A DNA stretch of 43,624 nt from contig JAJZJB010000004.1 in the NCBI GenBank assembly GCA_021810375.1, positions 1 to 43,624 of the forward strand. Direction: 5' to 3'. The stretch's first letter is position 1. Each line of letters starts with the position of its first letter. The notes below the pieces were generated by a model. The model saw nothing but the letters and a program-made list of their open reading frames with translations. It did not search any database and was not told where the DNA came from. Of the stretch, positions 1-27,685 are shown one piece after another. This stretch comes from Microcaldota archaeon (lineage in GTDB: Archaea; Micrarchaeota; Micrarchaeia; Micrarchaeales; CABMGC01). The translations under genes and the position numbers were made by a program.

Positions 1-885
1 AGATGGATGGCTCCGGCTATAGACGTGCCAGACATTGCTAGGACATCGAATTGCGAAGGCAAGGACGAAGAGTCGTTGAGCACATACATATAACCGTTGC
101 TAGGATCGTATATCATAGGATTGGTTGGACTTGAATAATAGCTACCAGAAGACAGAACTATATGCGTTAACTGAGATGTACCTGATATAATAGAGAGATT
201 GCCTTCGAATGTGATTGCATATATGTATCCGTTCTTCGGATCGTATGAGAGGTACTCGGGATTGAATCCGGAGATTGATACATTAGCAACGAATGAGGTT
301 CCAGACAGTATTGTTACATCGTTCGTATTATCCTGTGCAACGTATACATAGCCGTTGCTGGCATCATAAGCTAGCTGGTAGGAGTATAGATAGACGTTAT
401 AAGTTGATACAACGCTGGTGCCAGAGATTATTGCGACATTCTTGTAGTCTGCCACATACACATAGCCATCGCTAGGATCATAGACAGACCAGTGCGGACT
501 GTTATGGGAGAGTGCTATGGTAGCTACCACGGATGTGCCGGATATGACTGAAACATTAGAACCGCCGTTGTTAGATACATATACATAACCATTTCCAGAG
601 TCATATGACGCCCATATAGGATCTGAGCCCACAGTTATAGTTGCAACTACTGACGTGCCTGAGAGGACCGTTACCGTATCCGAATTGGAGTTTAGTATGT
701 AAATATAGCCATTTCCTGAGTCATAGACCCCGTATTCGGGGCTAGAACCCACGCTTACATTCGCAATCACTGAATTGCCAGATAGCACCGTTACCTGGTT
801 GGTGTTTGTATCCAGTACATAGACATATCCGTTTGCAGAATCGTTTAAGGCATAATCAGGATATGATTTCGCAGGGAGCGGAATT
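1..885 (-). repeat. Beta-propeller repeat block 2 (at least 7 approx. 40-aa YVTN-like repeats, continues past window edge)
   Basis: Translated repeats of the form xxYDSGNGYVYVxNxxxxxVxVxSGTSVVAxIxVGSxP about every 120-126 nt. Confidence 0.8.
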
Positions 886-3575
886 GACTGGCCAGAGACA
901 AACGAACATTCTGTAGAGGTTGAAGCCGATCCGCAGAGGGCATTGCCCCACTGAGCCGAGAAGGTATTGCTGCCTGGCATCTTTGCAAGCCATTGATACG
1001 AATATGGAGATGTGCCACCATAAGCGCCGTTTGAAGACATATATGCAGTCTGACCCGAGGTAATGGCATTTGTAGCCGGATATGCAGGATATACCAATAA
1101 TGGCGGCACTGTTACAATAATATTTGCAGACGCAGAGTTGGCAGTAGCAGGCGTAGATTCTGAGTCGGTGGCCTGGAGCTTAAAGTTGTATACTCCCGTA
1201 GGTATGGCCAACGGACTTGTTGCCTGGAGTATAGATACCGTTCCTGAGCCGTAATTCTCTACGTATACGAGGCCGTTGTTCGCAATCGAGAAGATGGGCT
1301 CGGATCCAACAGATATCTGTGCAGCGGCTGAAGAACCGCTTATGGCAGTGACAGTACCTGAACCATAGTTAGTCACATATACGTAACCGGAATATGGGTC
1401 GCCATTGAGGCTTATCGAAGTAGGATTATTGCCTACGGGAATTGTAGCTCCAAGGCTAGTGCCGAGTACATAGAGTGGAACTTGCACTACGGCACCGGAT
1501 CCTGCATCGAGGACATCTATGCCTCCATCATAAGGACCTAATGTTCCTGCAATAGGCTCGCTGCCTACGGATAAGGTAAGTTCAATTGTTGTTCCAGATA
1601 TCTCCGTGACTGTGCCAGAACCATAATTAAGGATGTCTATTACACTCTGGTCTTGCAGTGCGTAATCAGGCTCGCTGCCTACGGAGATTGTCGATGTAAC
1701 GCTAGTACCGGAGATAACCGAGACAGTACCGGAGCCGTAGTTAGGTATGTATACATAATTGTTAGTATCATATGCGCCGAACTCAGGCTGACTACCTACA
1801 GATATAGTAGCTATTACTGATGTCCCGGATATTACCGACACTGTTCCTGAGCCATAGTTTTCAACGTACACGTACCCGTCATAAGGATCGTATACTTCAG
1901 ATTTTGGATTATTGCCTACAGATACCGTGGCTATTACAACAGTATTGGAGATAACAGAGACAGTTCCTGAGCCCTTGTTAGCAACATAGACATATCCGTT
2001 TCCCGAGTCATATACAGCATATGCAGGGTCCGAACCCACAAGCATGTTTGCTATAACTGATGTTCCAGAGAACACCATTACGTTGCTGGTAGCATAATCA
2101 AGCACATATACATAACCATTGCCGGAGTCATTGACCGCATAGTAGGGGGTCTGGCCTATAGGCACTGCGCCAAATGCCGTGCTGGCAGCGCACTGTGGCG
2201 TCTGCGCTGTGCTTCCGCACAATGCATTTGCCTCTGTCGCAGTATATGTAACGCTGTTTGGAGTAGTGGCAAGCCACTGGTATGCGTATGGCAGTTCTCC
2301 ACCATAAGCGCCGTTGGATGTCACATATGCAACTTGCTCCTGGGCTACAGAGTTGCTTACAGGATATGGGGCATATACCGCCAGTGGGAAATATGGTACA
2401 AGTGTTACTGTAACAGCATTGGTTGTTTTGGTGACTGGCAATGGTTCTGAGTCAATGACTTGGAGCTTGAACATGTAGTTGCCTGGAGGTGTAAGCGTAT
2501 TGGCAGCGAACTTGCAAGTGGTTGTGGTAGCAGATGAACCGCAGAGAGTGTTTGCCTGGGTTGCTGAGAACGAAACGCCGTTAGCGGTAGTTGCAAGCCA
2601 TTGGTAGTTATATGGGGCTATGCCACCAGTTGCACCGCTATCTGACACATATGCGGTCTGGCCAAACGCTATCTCGTTAGTGGCAGGGTAGGGATCTGGA
2701 ATCTCTAGCGTGTATAGCGTCTGCACGGTTATTGCTGACGATCCAGAGGATATCTGCGTGTTTGCAGGCGCTTCGGAGTCGGTTACCTGGAACTCGAATT
2801 TGTATGTTCCAGTAGTAGTTGATGTGGTAGTGGAGAAGGCGCATGTTAGCGTCTGTGCAGAAGAGCCGCAGAGAGTGTTTGCCTCTGAAGCAGTATATGT
2901 ATTGCCTCCGACAACAGTAGCGAGCCATTGGTAATGATACGGTGTCAGGCCGCCAGATACAGTATCCGTTATGTATTGAGTCTGGGTCTGGGTTATGGTA
3001 TTCACCTGCGGTGTAGGCTGATACACGACAAGTCCAGTTGGGGCAGTTATGAATGAGGTAAGTGCTACTGGCAGGGAGGATATCTTAGTCTCAAGGGAAC
3101 CGTATAGAGTATGCTGGTACCCGGTAAACACATCAGCATACCTGATCGCCACGGTGCCTTTAAATGGCGTTCCAATAGATGACGAATAGGGACCATTAGG
3201 CCCATAGCATTGGGCAGTATATGTGTGGGAGGAGCCGGAATTCTGCAGGTAACTGGTGGCCTGGAACGTTGCAGAAGCATTGTTAACACTACACGATATC
3301 CCGGTCACATTTACCTGTTTGCCCGTTGTCTGAAGTATGGTTACGGACAGGATGCCGTTTGAGCTTACATACGCATTCTGGCAATAGAAATCGGCTCCAA
3401 GATTGCATGTAGTAACTGAAGAGTTGAAGAATCCGAAGCTGTAAAGGGCAATAAGCACTATGACAATTATTATTATTGCCCAGCCATAAGTCGTCAGGTA
3501 CTCTATTGCACTCTGCGGCCTTGACGTCCTTTTGCGTTTTATTGCGCTACTGCTCTGCCTCGGCTTCCTGGGCAT
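1..3575 (-). CDS. Giant surface protein (partial, runs off left edge): class III/type IV pilin-like signal peptide, Ig/PKD-like 'PYxYQWLAT' modules and YVTN-type beta-propeller repeats
   Basis: Manual minus-strand translation from ATG at 3575: MPRKPRQSSSAIKRKRTSRPQSAIEYLTTYGWAIIIIVIVLIALYSFGFF..., then repeats such as VGSDPIWASYDSGNGYVYVSNNGGSNVSVISGTSVVATI; no stop noticed to position 1 (about 1191 codons). Absent from the ORF track, probably because it has no stop in the window. Confidence 0.85.
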   Translation of the reverse strand, partial: MPRKPRQSSSAIKRKRTSRPQSAIEYLTTYGWAIIIIVIVLIALYSFGFFNSSVTTCNLGADFYCQNAYVSSNGILSVTILQTTGKQVNVTGISCSVNNASATFQATSYLQNSGSSHTYTAQCYGPNGPYSSSIGTPFKGTVAIRYADVFTGYQHTLYGSLETKISSLPVALTSFITAPTGLVVYQPTPQVNTITQTQTQYITDTVSGGLTPYHYQWLATVVGGNTYTASEANTLCGSSAQTLTCAFSTTTSTTTGTYKFEFQVTDSEAPANTQISSGSSAITVQTLYTLEIPDPYPATNEIAFGQTAYVSDSGATGGIAPYNYQWLATTANGVSFSATQANTLCGSSATTTTCKFAANTLTPPGNYMFKLQVIDSEPLPVTKTTNAVTVTLVPYFPLAVYAPYPVSNSVAQEQVAYVTSNGAYGGELPYAYQWLATTPNSVTYTATEANALCGSTAQTPQCAASTAFGAVPIGQTPYYAVNDSGNGYVYVLDYATSNVMVFSGTSVIANMLVGSDPAYAVYDSGNGYVYVANKGSGTVSVISNTVVIATVSVGNNPKSEVYDPYDGYVYVENYGSGTVSVISGTSVIATISVGSQPEFGAYDTNNYVYIPNYGSGTVSVISGTSVTSTISVGSEPDYALQDQSVIDILNYGSGTVTEISGTTIELTLSVGSEPIAGTLGPYDGGIDVLDAGSGAVVQVPLYVLGTSLGATIPVGNNPTSISLNGDPYSGYVYVTNYGSGTVTAISGSSAAAQISVGSEPIFSIANNGLVYVENYGSGTVSILQATSPLAIPTGVYNFKLQATDSESTPATANSASANIIVTVPPLLVYPAYPATNAITSGQTAYMSSNGAYGGTSPYSYQWLAKMPGSNTFSAQWGNALCGSASTSTECSFVSGQSIPLPAKSYPDYALNDSANGYVYVLDTNTNQVTVLSGNSVIANVSVGSSPEYGVYDSGNGYIYILNSNSDTVTVLSGTSVVATITVGSDPIWASYDSGNGYVYVSNNGGSNVSVISGTSVVATIALSHNSPHWSVYDPSDGYVYVADYKNVAIISGTSVVSTYNVYLYSYQLAYDASNGYVYVAQDNTNDVTILSGTSFVANVSISGFNPEYLSYDPKNGYIYAITFEGNLSIISGTSQLTHIVLSSGSYYSSPTNPMIYDPSNGYMYVLNDSSSLPSQFDVLAMSGTSIAGAIH
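1240..2165 (-). repeat. Beta-propeller repeat block 1 (about 8 YVTN-like repeats)
   Basis: Translated repeats (e.g. VGNNPKSEVYDPYDGYVYVENYGSGTVSVISGTSVIATIS). Confidence 0.8.
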
Positions 3576-3613
3576 GGATATGCCTGCCCAGTATATAAAT
3601 AAAAGGTTTGTGG

Positions 3614-4288
3614 TCAGGCCTTGGGCTTCTGCAGTGCCTCTATGTTCTTTAGTTCGTAGAGCTTGGCCAGTGCCTTATACGTTGCCAATGACATATTATA
3701 TACGTCCCTTGTCCTGCCCCTTGAGAAGGTCCAGACGTCTTTCACTCCTGCAAGCTCCAGTACCGATCTCACGGTATCGCTTGCGACTATGCCAACCCCT
3801 TTCGGTGCAGGCTTGAGTATCACTTCTGCGCTCCCGCACTTGGCGCTCAGCCTGAGCGGGAGGCTGTGCGGCGTGTTGCATTCGCACTCCTGCGAGCCGC
3901 AGCCAAGGTTTACAGAGATTATGTGCTTTTTTGCATCCCTTATGCCAGTATCTATGGCAGGTTTTGCCTCGGTGTCTTTTCCGACGCCTATGCCTATGTG
4001 GCCGTTTCTGTCCCCTACCACGACTGTTGCCCTGAACTTCTGCTTCCTGTTGTTCTTGGTCATTCTCTGGACAGATGCTATCTCGAGAACCTTGTCCTCC
4101 ATGCCGGGAAGCAGCGTGTCAACTACTTCGGTCTCCTTTATCGGCTTTCCGGTTGCGAAGATCTGCTCTAGTGAGGTTATTGTGCCTGCCTTGACCTGCT
4201 GGCCTATTTTTGTCTTTGGCTCCCATGTGCCAAGCGTATTCTCCTCTTCGTCGAAGTCTCTTCTCCTTTCTCTCCTATCACTTTCCAT
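3614..4288 (-). CDS. rps5: Ribosomal protein uS5
   Basis: ORF with S5 motifs (FRATVVVGDRNGHIGIGVGK...; LKPAPKGVGIVASDTVRSVLELAG); operon context. Confidence 0.96.
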   Translation of the reverse strand: MESDRRERRRDFDEEENTLGTWEPKTKIGQQVKAGTITSLEQIFATGKPIKETEVVDTLLPGMEDKVLEIASVQRMTKNNRKQKFRATVVVGDRNGHIGIGVGKDTEAKPAIDTGIRDAKKHIISVNLGCGSQECECNTPHSLPLRLSAKCGSAEVILKPAPKGVGIVASDTVRSVLELAGVKDVWTFSRGRTRDVYNMSLATYKALAKLYELKNIEALQKPKA

Positions 4289-4868
4289 TCAATATCTCCT
4301 CCCTTACCTTGTTGAAAAGGCTTGCCAGTGTCTCTGGCTCCTTTCCCTCCTTTATGTAGCTGCCGTACTGCTTCTGGTACTTCTCAGGGCTCTTCTCTTT
4401 AAGCTCCTTCACATATTTAACGTCAGAGTAGTTATATACCTTGGCATCTACCTGTGCCCCACTCCTTACCTTTAGCCCTGCATCTATGCACCCTCTTGCA
4501 AATGCAAACGGTATGGAATTCTTCACAGGAGAGCTTATGCCTATGTCAAGCACAAGTTCCTGGTCCTTGAGCTCCTTGTTTGCAACAGCCTTCTTTGCAA
4601 GCAGCGCTCCGACAAGATATGCGGTTGGACGGTTTGCCCTTGATGGCCAGCCGCGCTTTGAGAGCTCATTCGAGTCGGCATATGCAAGGGTAAGATCCCC
4701 AGTCTCCGTGTACTTAGATATGTGGCCGATAATCCTCTTGTTCGTCTTCCTGACCACTACGCGGTTCATTCCGCCCTTTACTGCGGCGAACCTCTTTTTA
4801 TAGTTGGTCTTGGCTTCCCGCCTCCTCCTGAACTGGAGCTGCCGTATCGTCTTGCGCATAAATATCAC
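4278..4868 (-). CDS. rpl18: Ribosomal protein uL18
   Basis: Archaeal L18-like sequence (FRRRREAKTNYKKRFAAVKGGMNRVVVRKTNKRI); operon position. Confidence 0.95.
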   Translation of the reverse strand: MIFMRKTIRQLQFRRRREAKTNYKKRFAAVKGGMNRVVVRKTNKRIIGHISKYTETGDLTLAYADSNELSKRGWPSRANRPTAYLVGALLAKKAVANKELKDQELVLDIGISSPVKNSIPFAFARGCIDAGLKVRSGAQVDAKVYNYSDVKYVKELKEKSPEKYQKQYGSYIKEGKEPETLASLFNKVREEILNGK

Positions 4869-5362
4869 CGGTACTGTTTGCTTATTTCCTCATTTATCTT
4901 CTTGATTTCCTCGTCGGTTATCACGATTCCCTGATCCCTAAGGTGTATAACCAGGGCTGCTTTGTTGGCATATACATTTCCCTTGACCTGACCGTAGAGC
5001 GTATTGAATGTTGCCGTATCAAGTTTCTGAAGCTCCTTGAGCTTCTTCAGGAATGTTCTCTGCGACCTTACTTTCTTCTCCCAGGAGATGCCACGGCGTG
5101 CTTGCCTTGTTCCGCGCCTTCTGCCTATTCCCCTCCTTCTTCCTTCGGCCCTCTTTTCCTTAAGGATCTTTGACCTTGAGCTTGCGTTATGCTTTGCCTT
5201 GAGCGCAAATATGCCTCCGGATTTTATGAGCCTTCTTACATCGTCGCGCGTTATTGCCTTCTCAGCGTCCTCTAGAGAGGCACTGCTTATCCGTATGGAG
5301 CTGGATCCCCTGTGCAGCAGGTCGCTTGCGACCCTCTTTGCGAATTTTATTGTCATATACAT
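4865..5362 (-). CDS. rpl19e: Ribosomal protein eL19
   Basis: L19e motifs (GRRRGIGRRRGTRQARRGISWEKKVRSQRTFLKKL). Confidence 0.95.
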   Translation of the reverse strand: MYMTIKFAKRVASDLLHRGSSSIRISSASLEDAEKAITRDDVRRLIKSGGIFALKAKHNASSRSKILKEKRAEGRRRGIGRRRGTRQARRGISWEKKVRSQRTFLKKLKELQKLDTATFNTLYGQVKGNVYANKAALVIHLRDQGIVITDEEIKKINEEISKQYR

Positions 5363-5724
5363 CAGGCCTTGTTCACTATCCTCACATTGTTCTTGTCCGC
5401 TATCCCGCGCAGCACTGACCTCTTCCTTGATGATAGGTCATGTGCAAACCTTACTACCCTAGAGCCATTGCCTTGTATCACGGCCATGAGCTCATTCTGG
5501 TTGTGGATTAGGACCTCGAATGAGCCATCGGGCCTTGCATAGCGTGTCTTCTCGCTGTTCTTGTATCCTATACTCGGTGTTGCGCCAAGCTCCTTCTTCT
5601 TGACCCGTTTCTTGCTGTCTATTCCGCGCTGGCTTCTCCATCTCTCCTTGACCCTCTTCCTATTTGGTGCACCGAAGTTCGGAACATAGAATTTTGGATG
5701 CTTTCTCTTTGCTATCATAATCAT
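5362..5724 (-). CDS. rpl32e: Ribosomal protein eL32
   Basis: L32e-like (RKHPKFYVPNFGAPNRKRVKERWRSQRGIDSKKR). Likely start MIMIAKRK at 5724, in an ATGA overlap with the uL6 stop and a GGAGGA upstream, rather than the ORF-track start at 5787. Confidence 0.9.
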   Translation of the reverse strand: MIMIAKRKHPKFYVPNFGAPNRKRVKERWRSQRGIDSKKRVKKKELGATPSIGYKNSEKTRYARPDGSFEVLIHNQNELMAVIQGNGSRVVRFAHDLSSRKRSVLRGIADKNNVRIVNKA

Positions 5725-6266
5725 TCCTCCTTTGCCGGGTATATGCCGTCCTGAAAGACGCGGGTGTCCTGACCGCGTGCATGGCACGCATGCATTATGT
5801 TGGTCATTGTCTGGCCGACATCGTACTTGTCCGCGCCAGTTATCTTAACGTCCTGGCCCTTTACCTCAACCTTGGTATCCCCGACTATCCTTGCGCGCCT
5901 TGGTATTTTCTCGCCGAAGATGTTCTTTATGAAGAAATCCTTCCCCTTTATCTCGGTTGACATGGGGAAGTGGGCGAATATTATGGTCATCTTCTTCTCT
6001 ATACCGTCATTGACTGTGGTGATGGAGCCCTTTACCTCTGTTGTCAGGGCCATCGAGGCGAGCTTTGCCTTTTCCTGCAGCTTCTTGTTCTTGGTAAGGC
6101 TTATTGATATCTTATTCCCTTCGACCTTCACATCAAGGAGTCGCAGGTCGACCCTCTTTACAGTAGACCCGCGTTTTCCCTGTATTGTCATCGCGCTGCC
6201 TTCCAGCTTAACGTTGACTCCTGACGGAATCTCTATCTGTGAAATCTCTGCCATGGGAACCATCAA
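5721..6266 (-). CDS. rpl6: Ribosomal protein uL6
   Basis: Archaeal L6-like sequence; operon position. Confidence 0.95.
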   Translation of the reverse strand: MMVPMAEISQIEIPSGVNVKLEGSAMTIQGKRGSTVKRVDLRLLDVKVEGNKISISLTKNKKLQEKAKLASMALTTEVKGSITTVNDGIEKKMTIIFAHFPMSTEIKGKDFFIKNIFGEKIPRRARIVGDTKVEVKGQDVKITGADKYDVGQTMTNIMHACHARGQDTRVFQDGIYPAKEE

Positions 6267-6646
6267 TATACGTATGCGAGAAGCCTTCCTCCTAGGCGCT
6301 TAGCCTTTGCCTCGTTGTTTGTCATTATGCCTTTCGAAGTTGATACTATGAGTATGCCGAAGTGCACGCTTGGTATGTAACGCTCCTCGAACTTCTGGAA
6401 CATTCCCGTAGTTACCGGATACCTAGGCTTTATTACTCCTATGTCATTTATTTTCTTCGAGAGCGTTATCCTGAGCTTCTTGAACCTGCCTTCCTTGACC
6501 TCTTCAAGATTGCCTATGTAATCATTGGCCTTCATGAGCTCAAGCACCGAGCGTATGAGTTTCGTGGACGGTACATCGCACTCGTAAAATCCCTTTGCCT
6601 CATAGACTTTTATCTTGTTTATAGTATCTGCGAAAAGATCTACCAT
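6263..6646 (-). CDS. rps8: Ribosomal protein uS8
   Basis: S8-like with C-terminal FGILIVSTSKGIMTNNEAKAKRLGGRLLAYVY. Confidence 0.95.
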   Translation of the reverse strand: MVDLFADTINKIKVYEAKGFYECDVPSTKLIRSVLELMKANDYIGNLEEVKEGRFKKLRITLSKKINDIGVIKPRYPVTTGMFQKFEERYIPSVHFGILIVSTSKGIMTNNEAKAKRLGGRLLAYVY

Positions 6647-6650
6647 TATC

Positions 6651-6809
6651 TCACCTGAATTTGTCGAAGCCTATCTCCGGAGCCACTTCCCTGAAACATC
6701 TCCTGCAGACATAAAGGCTGTATGAACGTATGAGAGCGCGGGAGCTTCCGCATATCCTGCACTTTCTCATATTCTTACCTTTGTATCTGAGCTCATAGCT
6801 TATCTTCAT
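6651..6809 (-). CDS. rps14: Ribosomal protein uS14 (zinc-binding form, 52 aa)
   Basis: Not in ORF track. Manual translation: MKISYELRYKGKNMRKCRICGSSRALIRSYSLYVCRRCFREVAPEIGFDKFR*, with CxxC...CxxC and the expected position between uL5 and uS8. Confidence 0.93.
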   Translation of the reverse strand: MKISYELRYKGKNMRKCRICGSSRALIRSYSLYVCRRCFREVAPEIGFDKFR

Positions 6810-6813
6810 ATCA

Positions 6814-7350
6814 TCATCTCTCTTTCCCCATTATCTTGGCACCGAACCTTGTTTCTATGAATCCCTGCAGCTCCTCCTTAGGTATGTTCCTGTGCCATAC
6901 GCCTACCCGGCTTGCCTTTCTCCGCCTGAGCTCGACCCTCTTGCCGCGCCTGCCAAATGCGGCATTGATGTTCATTCCAAGCATGCCTATCTTTGGGTCG
7001 TACTTGACCCCTGAGAAGTATATGTACTCGCTTATGCCGAAGTTGAGGGAGTTGTTAGCTATGGCATTCTCCTGCACGGTATTGTTATTTGCCTCCAGAG
7101 CCCTCTTTAGCAGCGAATATGCATCATCGCCGCGCAGTGTGACCATTGCGCCTATTACCTGTCCTTTCCTTATCTTTAGTTCAGGTTCCCTGCGTTTAGC
7201 TGTTGTAGCAACGGCAGACCTCCCGGTCAGCTTCTCGAGCAGAGCCCTGGCTCCGGAATAGGTGTCTTCCTTGTCACCTATGCCTATGTTCACGACAAGC
7301 TTCTCGAGCCTGATTTCCCTCATAGGATTCTCTTTTCCGTTCATGTTCAT
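6814..7350 (-). CDS. rpl5: Ribosomal protein uL5
   Basis: L5-like (NPMREIRLEKLVVNIGIGD...); operon position. Confidence 0.95.
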   Translation of the reverse strand: MNMNGKENPMREIRLEKLVVNIGIGDKEDTYSGARALLEKLTGRSAVATTAKRREPELKIRKGQVIGAMVTLRGDDAYSLLKRALEANNNTVQENAIANNSLNFGISEYIYFSGVKYDPKIGMLGMNINAAFGRRGKRVELRRRKASRVGVWHRNIPKEELQGFIETRFGAKIMGKER

Positions 7351-8024
7351 TCTCCTATTACCATCACATTGTCAACAAGCGTCAGGAATGTCCCTTTTCC
7401 GCTGTCAACCTCAACCGTAGATGCCCTGGTGGCCGTTCCTGTGTTTATCCCTTTTATGGTGCCGCTCTCCGAAGCATGGGTGCCCTTTATCACATAACAC
7501 CTGGCGCCGCTGGAGAATTTAACTATGGATTTCACTGCATTGTCTTTTACTGCTACGGAATCATTGACCTTGACCTCGTTCTTCCCTTCAAGGACAGAGC
7601 CGTCGTAAAGCCTGAGCATGACTTTGTTCTTCTTGCCGAGGTATTTGCCGATTACCTTTACATACCTGTCGGTTGTTGGCTTGTCGTCCACCCTTATGGC
7701 GCCCTTTTTAGCCACGTCTATCCTGTACGAAGCCCCGGTTGGCTTGAGCGTTATCATATCACCGAAACCTACAGGATATCGCTTGTCCCTGACCTGCTTG
7801 CCGTTTATTAGGACGTTGCCATTCTTTATGAGTATGCCTGCCTCTCTCGAATCTGCTGCTACGCCCATCTTCTCCTTGAGCAGCGTGACCAGGGCTATGC
7901 TGTTCTCTAACGTATGCCTTCCCGGGTTCTGCTTCGTTACATAGGTAGAGACCTTGCGGTCTATGCGCATGTACTTGCTTGCAGCGAACCGATTCATGTG
8001 CCTGCTGTTTCCTTTCCTTGCCAT
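7347..8024 (-). CDS. rps4e: Ribosomal protein eS4
   Basis: S4e-like (MNRFAASKYMRIDRKVSTYVTKQNPGRHTLENSIALVTLLKE). Confidence 0.95.
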   Translation of the reverse strand: MARKGNSRHMNRFAASKYMRIDRKVSTYVTKQNPGRHTLENSIALVTLLKEKMGVAADSREAGILIKNGNVLINGKQVRDKRYPVGFGDMITLKPTGASYRIDVAKKGAIRVDDKPTTDRYVKVIGKYLGKKNKVMLRLYDGSVLEGKNEVKVNDSVAVKDNAVKSIVKFSSGARCYVIKGTHASESGTIKGINTGTATRASTVEVDSGKGTFLTLVDNVMVIGE

Positions 8025-8446
8025 TATGCCACCTTTGTAACCTCTTTTACAGCTGCCTTTGATGGATTGTTGCCCTTGAGCCTCTCGATCTTTGTGCTCC
8101 GCGTCTTGTCAGTGAGGTCTATATCCATAAGGTAAACGTTTGACGAATAGATGGGCAGCGGAAGCTCCTTTCCCTTTGCATCCTTCCGGTTTATGCCTTC
8201 TATGAAAATGCGCCCTGTCCTTAAGTTTACCACGCTGACCTTTCCGCTCTTTCCGCGGTGCGAGCCAGACTGGACCTTGACTGTATCGCCTTTCCTGAGG
8301 CTTATGCTCCTGGACTTTATGCCAAGCTTCTTGGCCAGCTCGTCGGATACGTGGGCGTGCATGAACTTCTGCCTCTCGTGCAGCGGTGCGTTGAACCGGA
8401 ATTTCCTTTCCTTCCTAGGCTGGCTGCTTTTTATCATATTATACAA
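8024..8446 (-). CDS. rpl24: Ribosomal protein uL24
   Basis: KOW-type L24 (RKGDTVKVQSGSHRGKSGKVSVVNLRTGRIFIEGINR). Confidence 0.95.
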   Translation of the reverse strand: MYNMIKSSQPRKERKFRFNAPLHERQKFMHAHVSDELAKKLGIKSRSISLRKGDTVKVQSGSHRGKSGKVSVVNLRTGRIFIEGINRKDAKGKELPLPIYSSNVYLMDIDLTDKTRSTKIERLKGNNPSKAAVKEVTKVA

Positions 8447-8849
8447 TCCTCGATGCTACGCCCGCAACCTTGACGAATCTCTCGACTACTTCCCTGGCCA
8501 TGGCACCCTTAACCTCAGTACCTATGGGCAGATTGTCATCGCTTATCATTATCCCTGCATTGTCCTCGAAACGAAGCCTCATGCCATTGGCTCGCCTTAT
8601 CAGGGCCTTCTGCCTTATTATCACTACGCGAACGGGCTTTTTCAGGTATGTTGCAGTGCCTTTCGTCACGCTGGCGGAGATTATGTCTCCGACTCCGGCA
8701 GAGGACAGCCTTCCGTGTTCGCCGCCGGTCTTGCCTATTATGTGGATCATCTTGAACTCATATGCCCCGCTGTTGTCGGCGCATTGTATTATAGACATGG
8801 GAACGAATGCTTTCGTAATCTTTGATGAAACACCTTTCATAGAAAACAA
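8439..8849 (-). CDS. rpl14: Ribosomal protein uL14
   Basis: L14-like (IIQCADNSGAYEFKMIHIIG...). Confidence 0.95.
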   Translation of the reverse strand: MFSMKGVSSKITKAFVPMSIIQCADNSGAYEFKMIHIIGKTGGEHGRLSSAGVGDIISASVTKGTATYLKKPVRVVIIRQKALIRRANGMRLRFEDNAGIMISDDNLPIGTEVKGAMAREVVERFVKVAGVASRIV

Positions 8850-24751: not shown

Positions 24752-27685
24752 TTAGGCTTTGCCTGCAGCTGCAAGGAGCTGGGTTATGAACTGGTTTCCT
24801 GCAGTTACGGTCTGGTTGGCCGTGTATCCTGCTACCAGTATCTTGTTCCCAAATGCCTGCACTGTTACTGCGTTAGGCCCGCTCGCGCCGCCATTGTCGA
24901 AGCTCGATGCGAACTGAGGGTTGGCTGCGAAGATCTGTCCTGCGACAGAGTTCACGTATGCGCTTCCCACTACGACCAACGATGAGGCGTTGTTCGCGTT
25001 CGTGTCAAGTACTGCGATTGGCGTGTTCACGGTGTTCAGGTGGCTTGAGACAACTGCCTGCGTGACTGAAGGTGTTGCTACAAGTGCGTTCGTTCCTACC
25101 ACTGTGCAAGTGGTGCTTGAGAACGTGCAGCTTGCGTTCACCTGCGCTATTGTCACGTTTGCTATGTTGGTTGTCTGCCCGACAGTGTATGGACCATAGT
25201 TAGTCGTTGTCGAGAGTGCCGTGTTGCTCGATGTGACAGGTCCTACCACGAACTGCAATGTGTCTACAGTCTTAGCCAGATCGAATGTATCGGTCGTTGG
25301 CGTGATTGATGCCACAGTGCTTCCGCGTTCTGTTCTGAAGCCTGACCTCACTGCAAATGAGCCTGCGCCAGTTGAGCTGGTGTACGTCACGTTGTTGTGT
25401 TGCGCACCTGCTGCCGTGTAGTTCACCTGGAAGAGCGGCTCCGCAGTGTTCCCTCCAGTGTTGTTGAAGAGACCAAAGCTTAGCTGATCCTCTGCAAGCG
25501 AGTTTGTTGGCACAGCAAGTTCGTTCACAGTATATGTGAAGTACTGCCCTACGCCCACGTTAGGCTGCGTTCCTGTGGCATTAGCCGCGACAGTGAATGG
25601 CTGGCTTGGCTGCCCAGGCTGGTTGTAGTTCACAGTGTTGCCCGATGCAAGTTCCTCGTAAGGATAGTTCTTGCCTGAGACCGAGTAGAGCACCGTAGGT
25701 CCTGCTGCGTTTATCAGCTTTGCCAGATTCACCAGCGAGTTTGAAGCTCCTTCAACCGTCACACTCAACCCTCCTGGAGGGAGCGGACCCGAAGGGATCA
25801 GCTTTATTCCAGTTACGTTGTACATGCCGGTCGTTGCAAGGTTCTCAGTCGCGCTGTTCGAGGTGAACGTTACCGTTCCCTGTACGCCAGAGCCCGTATT
25901 GGTTGTACCGAGTACCTGAACCTGGAGCTGGTGGGTCGGTGTAATGTAGTTGCCTGCAATTCCATTGCCAGCTGTATACGCGAGCACCACCGTTAGAGCA
26001 TTGCCTCCGGTAAGCCCGTTTGCAACCTGGCTGAAGACATATGGAGTCAGGTCATATGTTACGCTGCTGCTCGACGTTCCAGCGAACGTGAATGCGTTCG
26101 GTATCTGGCTTGTCACTGTTAGCAGCTGTGCAGGTTCTGTTACGTTTGTTGCGCCTGCAGCTGTTGCGCCAACATAGGTTGCAGTTGAGCCGAGGTTGTC
26201 AGTGTACTGCTCGGTTGCCTGGTAGCTCGTCGAGAATGTCACAGGGTCGTAGTTGTTGCCCAGCGTGTCACCAACGAATGTTACCTTGTACCTTGCAGGG
26301 TTCGGTATGAAGGTGAAACCCTGTCCAGGAGACAATGTCGTAGGGGAAGTGTTGTATATCACTATGCCCTGAAGTGCGTCACCATATCCGCTCGTTGATG
26401 TGTTTGTCCAGAGCAGGTTTACGTCCCATCCCTTGTCTCCAGTCTGGTTGAAGGCTGAACCATCCCTTACCTGAACCAGGTTGGAGTAGAGCTGAACCTT
26501 GGCCCACTTCTGGTATGCATACAATCCGGCAAATGTCTGGTTCACGTGCACATAGAGTACATGTCCAGTGACATTGAACTTCTGTGTCGTGAATGGAGCC
26601 ATTTGCGTCACGTTAGTGAGAACGCCGTCGTAGTAGACGTTGAGGGCCGCATTGGACAAGCCATTCGAGTTAGGCTGACCCAAGTCAGTAACCTGGACGT
26701 TGAATCCACCAACGCTTGAGTTGGATACGTTCTGGCCCACATATACTGTGTGGAGAGGCGTCAGTGAAGATGCCAGCCACATGGATCCGCCATGTTCTAC
26801 GTTCTGGTTAGCTACGGTTGTCTTACTGCCGGTTGCATTGACTATTGTCCAGTTCTCTCCGAGCAGCTGGATTGGCACATTTATGTTTGTTGCGCCGTTA
26901 GTCGAGGTGTTCTGTATAGGCTTTGAGAACGTTGCCTCATATGCACCGCCAGTGTTTAGGAGCTGGAAGTTGTTCACTCCGGATTGCTGGTTGAATACAG
27001 GGAATCCTGTCAGCCAGAGTTCCTCGCTCTCTCCGTTTCCCCCAAAGTTGCTCGCAAGAGCAGGGAGCTGCGTGCTCGTTATCTGAAGCAGGTTGTCGCT
27101 GCTGCTCTGTGTGAATGAACTAAACGTGACTCCGCCACCATTGTAGTTATATACTACTGATGTTGATGTAGGCACGCTTCCCGCACTTGTGTACGGGCTT
27201 GCAGCAGGAGATGCTGTCAATGATGTTGACTCTGGATATGCGTATTGCGCCGAAGATGTCTGCAATGACTTTGTGTATTGCAGAGCGTTCAGCTGGACTG
27301 CCCTGTTGAGGACAGAACCTATCAGCGCTTGGAATCCATACGATCCGCTAGGCGCAGACAAGCCCTTCTCTCCGAGCCAGACCTGCTGGTTTGTTATCTT
27401 GCACGTAGGTGTTCCGCCGCAGCTCAGAACGCTATTCGCGTTTGTAACTGTTGCGGTGACATTCTGCGTAGTCAGCGCGAGGTTTCCTATGACTGCAGCT
27501 ATGTTAGCCGCAACCACTCCGTCGGAAGGCGCTGCCGCATGTCCCACGACAATCTGCACTACTGGTTGCCCTTGGTTGTTTATTATTGGCACGTTACCAA
27601 ACGTAACGCCCTGTCCTGCAACAGCAAGACCCATTACCAAACTGGCCGCTACCGCGGCTATTCTCTTCGCGTTTAGACTTTTCAT
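24752..27685 (-). CDS. S-layer-like surface protein
   Basis: 977 aa, signal peptide (KSLNAKRIAAVAASLVMGLAVAGQG), very Ser/Thr/Asn/Val-rich, few Lys, many N-x-S/T sites. Confidence 0.75.
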   Translation of the reverse strand: MKSLNAKRIAAVAASLVMGLAVAGQGVTFGNVPIINNQGQPVVQIVVGHAAAPSDGVVAANIAAVIGNLALTTQNVTATVTNANSVLSCGGTPTCKITNQQVWLGEKGLSAPSGSYGFQALIGSVLNRAVQLNALQYTKSLQTSSAQYAYPESTSLTASPAASPYTSAGSVPTSTSVVYNYNGGGVTFSSFTQSSSDNLLQITSTQLPALASNFGGNGESEELWLTGFPVFNQQSGVNNFQLLNTGGAYEATFSKPIQNTSTNGATNINVPIQLLGENWTIVNATGSKTTVANQNVEHGGSMWLASSLTPLHTVYVGQNVSNSSVGGFNVQVTDLGQPNSNGLSNAALNVYYDGVLTNVTQMAPFTTQKFNVTGHVLYVHVNQTFAGLYAYQKWAKVQLYSNLVQVRDGSAFNQTGDKGWDVNLLWTNTSTSGYGDALQGIVIYNTSPTTLSPGQGFTFIPNPARYKVTFVGDTLGNNYDPVTFSTSYQATEQYTDNLGSTATYVGATAAGATNVTEPAQLLTVTSQIPNAFTFAGTSSSSVTYDLTPYVFSQVANGLTGGNALTVVLAYTAGNGIAGNYITPTHQLQVQVLGTTNTGSGVQGTVTFTSNSATENLATTGMYNVTGIKLIPSGPLPPGGLSVTVEGASNSLVNLAKLINAAGPTVLYSVSGKNYPYEELASGNTVNYNQPGQPSQPFTVAANATGTQPNVGVGQYFTYTVNELAVPTNSLAEDQLSFGLFNNTGGNTAEPLFQVNYTAAGAQHNNVTYTSSTGAGSFAVRSGFRTERGSTVASITPTTDTFDLAKTVDTLQFVVGPVTSSNTALSTTTNYGPYTVGQTTNIANVTIAQVNASCTFSSTTCTVVGTNALVATPSVTQAVVSSHLNTVNTPIAVLDTNANNASSLVVVGSAYVNSVAGQIFAANPQFASSFDNGGASGPNAVTVQAFGNKILVAGYTANQTVTAGNQFITQLLAAAGKA

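Follow-up and report, generated by a model that had tools for sequence, protein, structure and literature searches.

Organization of the gene and its product

The window, by which is meant the whole stretch of DNA analysed, takes up the initial 43.6 kb of contig C1 (window base 1 being the contig's first base), in an assembly of 601 kb and 33 contigs that is 64% complete. At its very beginning is an open reading frame on the minus strand, positions 3-3575, whose translation of 1191 amino acids is still open at the contig end. These are the first residues of a Micrarchaeota surface protein, the C-terminal rest of which lies beyond the contig. The gene is outside any pilus locus and adjoins ribosomal protein genes, coming after a run of them that ends in S5 (3614-8849, minus strand). 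The 38-base gap between this run and the gene holds a TATA-like stretch, TTTTATTTATATA (3592-3604), about 17-29 bases before the ATG and conserved in the sister genome described below, possibly the surface-protein gene's own, leaderless promoter. In the sister genome, the next genes downstream are convergent, some of them ribosomal protein-like.

The pilin-like N-terminal part (3051-3575; this and all further features of the gene are on the minus strand) consists of a basic leader, a class-III-type pilin signal, and a small pilin-like domain. The signal, RPQSAIEYL with a hydrophobic helix (about 3426-3515), was recognized by eye in the translation, where basic leader, QxSxE-like motif, and hydrophobic helix are all present (KRKRTSRPQSAIEYLTTYGWAIIIIVIVLIALYSFG); Pfam gives no match for a pilin signal. 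The entire part resembles many free-standing ORFs of about 160-200 amino acids found in relatives. It is followed by two intact Ig/PKD-like modules, module 1 (2721-3035) and module 2 (2397-2717). Module 3 then begins (...PYAYQWLATT...ANALCGSTAQTPQCAAS, 2181-2390), is split by eight YVTN-type repeats (propeller 1, 1206-2180), and is completed on the far side (IPTGVYNFKLQATDSES...NIIVTV, 1104-1205). Module 4 begins (894-1100) and is split by propeller 2, of which the first seven of eight blades, assigned from HMM matches and the complete ortholog, are present (3-893) before the sequence runs off the contig. The original prediction placed these elements correctly to within a few dozen bases, save that module 1 begins earlier than supposed. 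Pfam offers no match to the modules above its cut-off (K319L-like_PKD, with an E value of 0.059, and Y_Y_Y, with 24.1 bits, are both below it), and for this reason they are called Ig/PKD-like only.

Since the contig starts at window base 1, the closing half of module 4 was sought in a sister genome of the same genus (G003:C4). It carries the complete gene (L080/L038), 95% identical and with the same start. There the remainder of propeller 2, which in the window is past the contig end, is followed by the closing half-module GTYRFELQATDSE (GLPAGTYRFELQATDSESPAAVNVSSVANVIISV), just the GxYxFxLQxTDSE half-module that had been predicted, and then by a C-terminal domain of about 185 residues (its CUB-like match is weak and below cut-off). 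The same ortholog disposes of the notion of a giant string of propellers, as the protein has 1448 residues and two propellers only.

Comparison of the two genes over the whole known length gives a dS of 0.34, an overall dN/dS of 0.08, and one 2-residue indel. By part, dN/dS is 0.06 for the pilin-like region, 0.06 for propeller 1, 0.15 for the known stretch of propeller 2, and 0.00-0.08 for modules and half-modules. Purifying selection thus acts across pilin, intact modules, half-modules, and propellers. There is next to no chance that an error of assembly or reading frame fused a propeller gene to an Ig gene: although the window's contig does end within propeller 2, the independently assembled sister genome, at that divergence and with that single indel, has the same architecture in one continuous frame, which already refutes such a joining.

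A scan of genome contigs for relatives returned only the sister species (JAJZKP010000010.1, Candidatus Micrarchaeota archaeon MAS1.bin34), together with two remote hits in bacteria; the latter are by eye SprB-like repeats and were of no use for alignment. When 164 genomes of the order were searched for the exit junction, strong junction-spanning matches appeared only in the window and sister genomes, so this nested type looks confined, as far as sampled, to two species. In viral contigs, searches with propeller 1 and with the Ig module found no relatives. Two other proteins deserve mention. The window's own genome encodes a second pilin-Ig protein (L039, G000:C13:2805-4385), whose third module, most like module 3 of the window protein, is cut off by a contig end; it may be another nested unit. 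A pilin-type protein of another genome (L040, G004:C84) has a long glycine-rich stretch between Ig-like modules (residues about 480-700), and its C-terminal domain is similar to the one in the ortholog.

Propellers within Ig/PKD-like modules

The division of the modules was measured against a profile of 138 Ig-module domains from other proteins, the window protein and its ortholog having been left out of training. The two intact modules score 113 bits each. Taken alone, the first halves of modules 3 and 4 score 64 and 68 bits (profile positions 1-66 and 2-68 of 103), and second halves score 30-38 bits (positions 74-103; 38 bits for module 3). Joined, the halves give 98-99 bits from profile position 1 or 2 to 103 (92-99 bits being the full range of joined scores), with module 3 reaching 99 bits over positions 1-103. 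The matches confirm the main elements of the original prediction: the presence of two intact modules, the interruption and resumption of module 3 around about eight YVTN repeats, and the cutting of module 4 at the same place by a second propeller that leaves the window.

The insertion falls in the loop between the TxxCxF strand and the GxYxFxLQxTDS strand. In intact modules elsewhere, 11 residues separate the cysteine strand from the GxY strand (31 of 33 instances), so the site taken up or enlarged by the propellers is a single short loop. At the level of sequence profiles, then, both propellers are shown to be inserted as complete rings in the same loop of an Ig/PKD-like module, and each to be tethered by both of its ends to one Ig module. 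The two half-modules would presumably pair physically across the propeller. A search of the literature found no propeller nested in PKD or Ig domains, an absence that is weak evidence.

Propeller 1 itself is readily recognized. The YVTN repeat TIGR02276 matches with 105 bits against a cut-off of 27.85, in six stretches with repeats of about 40 residues. In the AlphaFold model of window module 3, residues 74-391 form eight blades (block mean pLDDT 70-96 from residue 81). An additional strand (74-79) lies ahead of blade 1, and the final blade is left with three strands of its own, the usual Velcro closure, so that the chain is predicted to enter and exit at the same blade. The model predicts propeller 1 to be a closed ring of eight four-stranded blades. 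Foldseek finds 1L0Q as its best PDB match (E 1e-15), and the designed eight-bladed proteins Tako8 and Cake8 match with a target TM of about 0.81.

Structure prediction had been proposed as a check on the nesting, and, applied to single nested modules, it yielded the eight-bladed ring while leaving the Ig halves mostly below pLDDT 50 in both AlphaFold runs. The first job, on module 4 of the ortholog with 4 alignment rows, gave a moderate propeller and no Ig domain. Full-length intact modules, tried as alignment rows, were misaligned into the propeller, and half-module rows were therefore used instead; with split rows, the second job gave a better propeller and unimproved Ig halves.

That AlphaFold does not build the Ig halves is what one might expect if they were independent linkers, or decayed remnants of Ig domains, on either side of a propeller in an ordinary linear chain. 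Linear Ig-propeller-Ig chains do occur in the same order (L086, L090, L095). However, the halves are exactly complementary in the two nested units here as well as in 13 cases of a second type (see below), the cut falls at nearly one point, and purifying selection on the halves is the same as on intact modules. The linear reading is on these grounds highly improbable.

The origin of the two nested units is less plain. Compared blade by blade, propellers 1 and 2 align most closely when kept in register, blades 1 and 2 scoring highest against their own counterparts and other registers coming close behind, which hints that one nested unit was duplicated to give both. A tree of 15 propeller rows neither groups nor separates them (they are together in 28% of bootstrap trees). 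Of the idea of a fixed loop used twice, the common point within the module is borne out, and the second occurrence may come either from another insertion or from duplication of a nested unit. Free-standing propellers of eight repeats in the same order, with 40-51% identity to propeller 1, are a plausible source of the nested ones; some of them are joined to a pilin part through a Ser/Thr-rich linker.

A second nested type in the order

A survey of the order's proteins that combine propellers with Ig modules brought to light a second nested type, in which the propeller splits a different but related module. On a profile of 122 positions made from nine intact copies of that module, the upstream flanks cover positions 1 to about 44-57 and the downstream flanks about 52-58 to 122. 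The joined flanks score 75-118 bits in 13 cases from 12 ORFs (L083, twice, and L145, L153, L182, L154, L085, L094, L146, L101, L128, L049, and L151), belonging to 11 genomes (G019, G026, G036, G053, G058, G081, G088, G093, G101, G150, and G159). Others (L144, L152, L148, L149, L147, L124, and L174) have both halves around blades but fall outside the strict joining rule; a looser rule adds G039 and G082, for 13 genomes. The genomes come from two families of the order. Among the 301 genomes of the phylum that were searched, second-type matches were found in this order only, and none in the ten searched genomes of the window's genus.

The propellers of the second type are mostly seven-bladed. The module profiles of the two types are homologous (hhalign probability 95%), and inspection of the hhalign alignment by eye places the cut of the second type before the LCGSxAxTxxCxF strand; in the window type the cut follows that strand, some 15 residues further on; exact loop names for the two cut sites can be given only presumptively. 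The insertion point that was to be looked for in homologues is kept in the sister species; other genomes split the related module at the earlier position.

The two types also differ in how they are anchored. According to a simple hydropathy scan of the second-type proteins whose 3' end is complete, 10 of 11 finish in a hydrophobic helix and basic tail (L174 is the exception), and most have a signal-like stretch at the start with the nested module directly after it. The window type has its anchor at the N-terminus and its propellers toward the C-terminus. With both anchor and propeller at opposite ends in the two designs, the propeller looks to be membrane-distal in each, and this is the main argument for regarding it as a binding head on a stalk. 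The evidence leaves evenly poised the broader proposal that a convergent solution arose at least twice in Micrarchaeota, with propeller heads set into membrane-distal Ig modules of a stalk. The loops used would differ, as would the polarity of the chain (pilin anchor at the N-terminus or membrane helix at the C-terminus), and in each case the doubly tethered adhesin head would serve contact with host archaea.

Some proteins of the survey depart from the common pattern. L148 (G082:C6) has fourteen blades between the halves of one Ig-type module (residues about 91-678), perhaps two propellers in a single insertion. L087 and L088 (G119:C107 and G126:C27) have about five YVTN repeats, then several hundred other residues, then about three to four repeats, as if in the inverse arrangement other domains had been inserted into a propeller. 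The open frame of L049 (G026:C5) is 5658 residues long; it contains many Ig-like modules and a single nested propeller.

Proposed function and comparison with known systems

The architecture is well supported; as to function, we infer, and think it rather probable, that the gene product is a surface adhesin of modular build, anchored by its pilin part and bearing propeller heads tethered at both ends. According to this model, the pilin-like N-terminus would hold the protein either in the membrane or within a type IV pilus, a stalk would be built of the intact Ig modules, and the nested propellers would serve as binding heads toward the membrane-distal end. Since both ends of a propeller connect to a single Ig loop, tension could be carried by the Ig stalk without running through the ring, and a ring so by-passed could be exchanged or diversified with the stalk unbroken. 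The putative ligand is likely a surface structure of a host archaeon or of neighbouring cells. Micrarchaeota are a lineage likely dependent on host interactions (PMC8975820), and the source archaeon is tiny and probably host-dependent.

The main alternative accepts the same nesting but makes the protein an accessory of the envelope, perhaps a decoration of the S-layer, held in the membrane by a pilin N-terminus that is only an anchor and never part of a pilus. Pilin-type N-termini do occur on many large surface ORFs of these genomes, and in Mia14 (Ca. Mancarchaeum acidiphilum) PKD/YVTN proteins have been described as surface-layer components (PMC5498576). An S-layer gene (PF05124, S_layer_C) lies in the same window (24752-27685, minus strand), though, being separate, it also makes it improbable that the nested protein forms the lattice itself. 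Against a mere anchor, the genome encodes a prepilin peptidase (Peptidase_A24, G000:C28:2418-2723), and conservation extends beyond the helix to the globular pilin-like domain, which a bare anchor would not need. We therefore consider an envelope accessory less likely. The gene for the pilus platform, T2SSF, is present in genus mates and was not found in the window's own (64% complete) or the sister (74% complete) assembly. Its absence from these two incomplete assemblies speaks against a pilus role, as does the placement of the gene beside ribosomal protein genes. The prepilin peptidase, the platform of the genus mates, and the precedents of Mia14 and modular pilins together favour the pilin-anchored adhesin.

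Propellers and PKD domains have been known in archaeal surface proteins since 2002, as tandem chains. The only PDB sequence match and top fold match, 1L0Q, a surface layer protein of Methanosarcina mazei, likewise combines a YVTN propeller with a PKD/Ig-like domain in an archaeal surface protein. By its title, however, its arrangement is tandem, whereas the window protein begins with a pilin-type N-terminus, and its propeller, predicted to have eight blades, sits inside the module. The integrin beta subunit, with an I-like domain inserted in an Ig-like hybrid domain, offers a parallel (homology is not claimed) in that a ligand-binding domain sits in a loop of an Ig-fold module, but it is an animal receptor with another insert fold, part of a signalling heterodimer.

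The second type (e.g., L083, L094, L145, L154) also has its propeller set into one Ig-like module, in large surface proteins from the window's own order; it differs in its mostly seven blades, its earlier loop, and its signal peptide and C-terminal membrane helix in place of a pilin N-terminus. Mia14, a related archaeon, has the same domain types in PKD and Kelch/YVTN surface proteins proposed for cell-cell contact; compared by description only, these differ in their fusion to a CARDB-like adhesion module, and that description mentions no nesting (PMC5498576). Bacterial modular pilins carrying grafted adhesive domains are established, and PilB and PilC of Streptococcus sanguinis similarly bear an adhesive domain on a pilin with a class III signal, but that domain is a vWA or lectin module, without Ig stalk or nested propeller (PMC9934059).

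What the window protein adds is a new arrangement of known domain types, apparently reached more than once in one archaeal order: complete rings inside an Ig module, in two independent-looking versions. If the halves fold together, nesting would be a natural means for a load-bearing stalk to carry a binding head that can be exchanged, and the proteins identified here would be concrete candidates for how host-dependent archaea hold their hosts.
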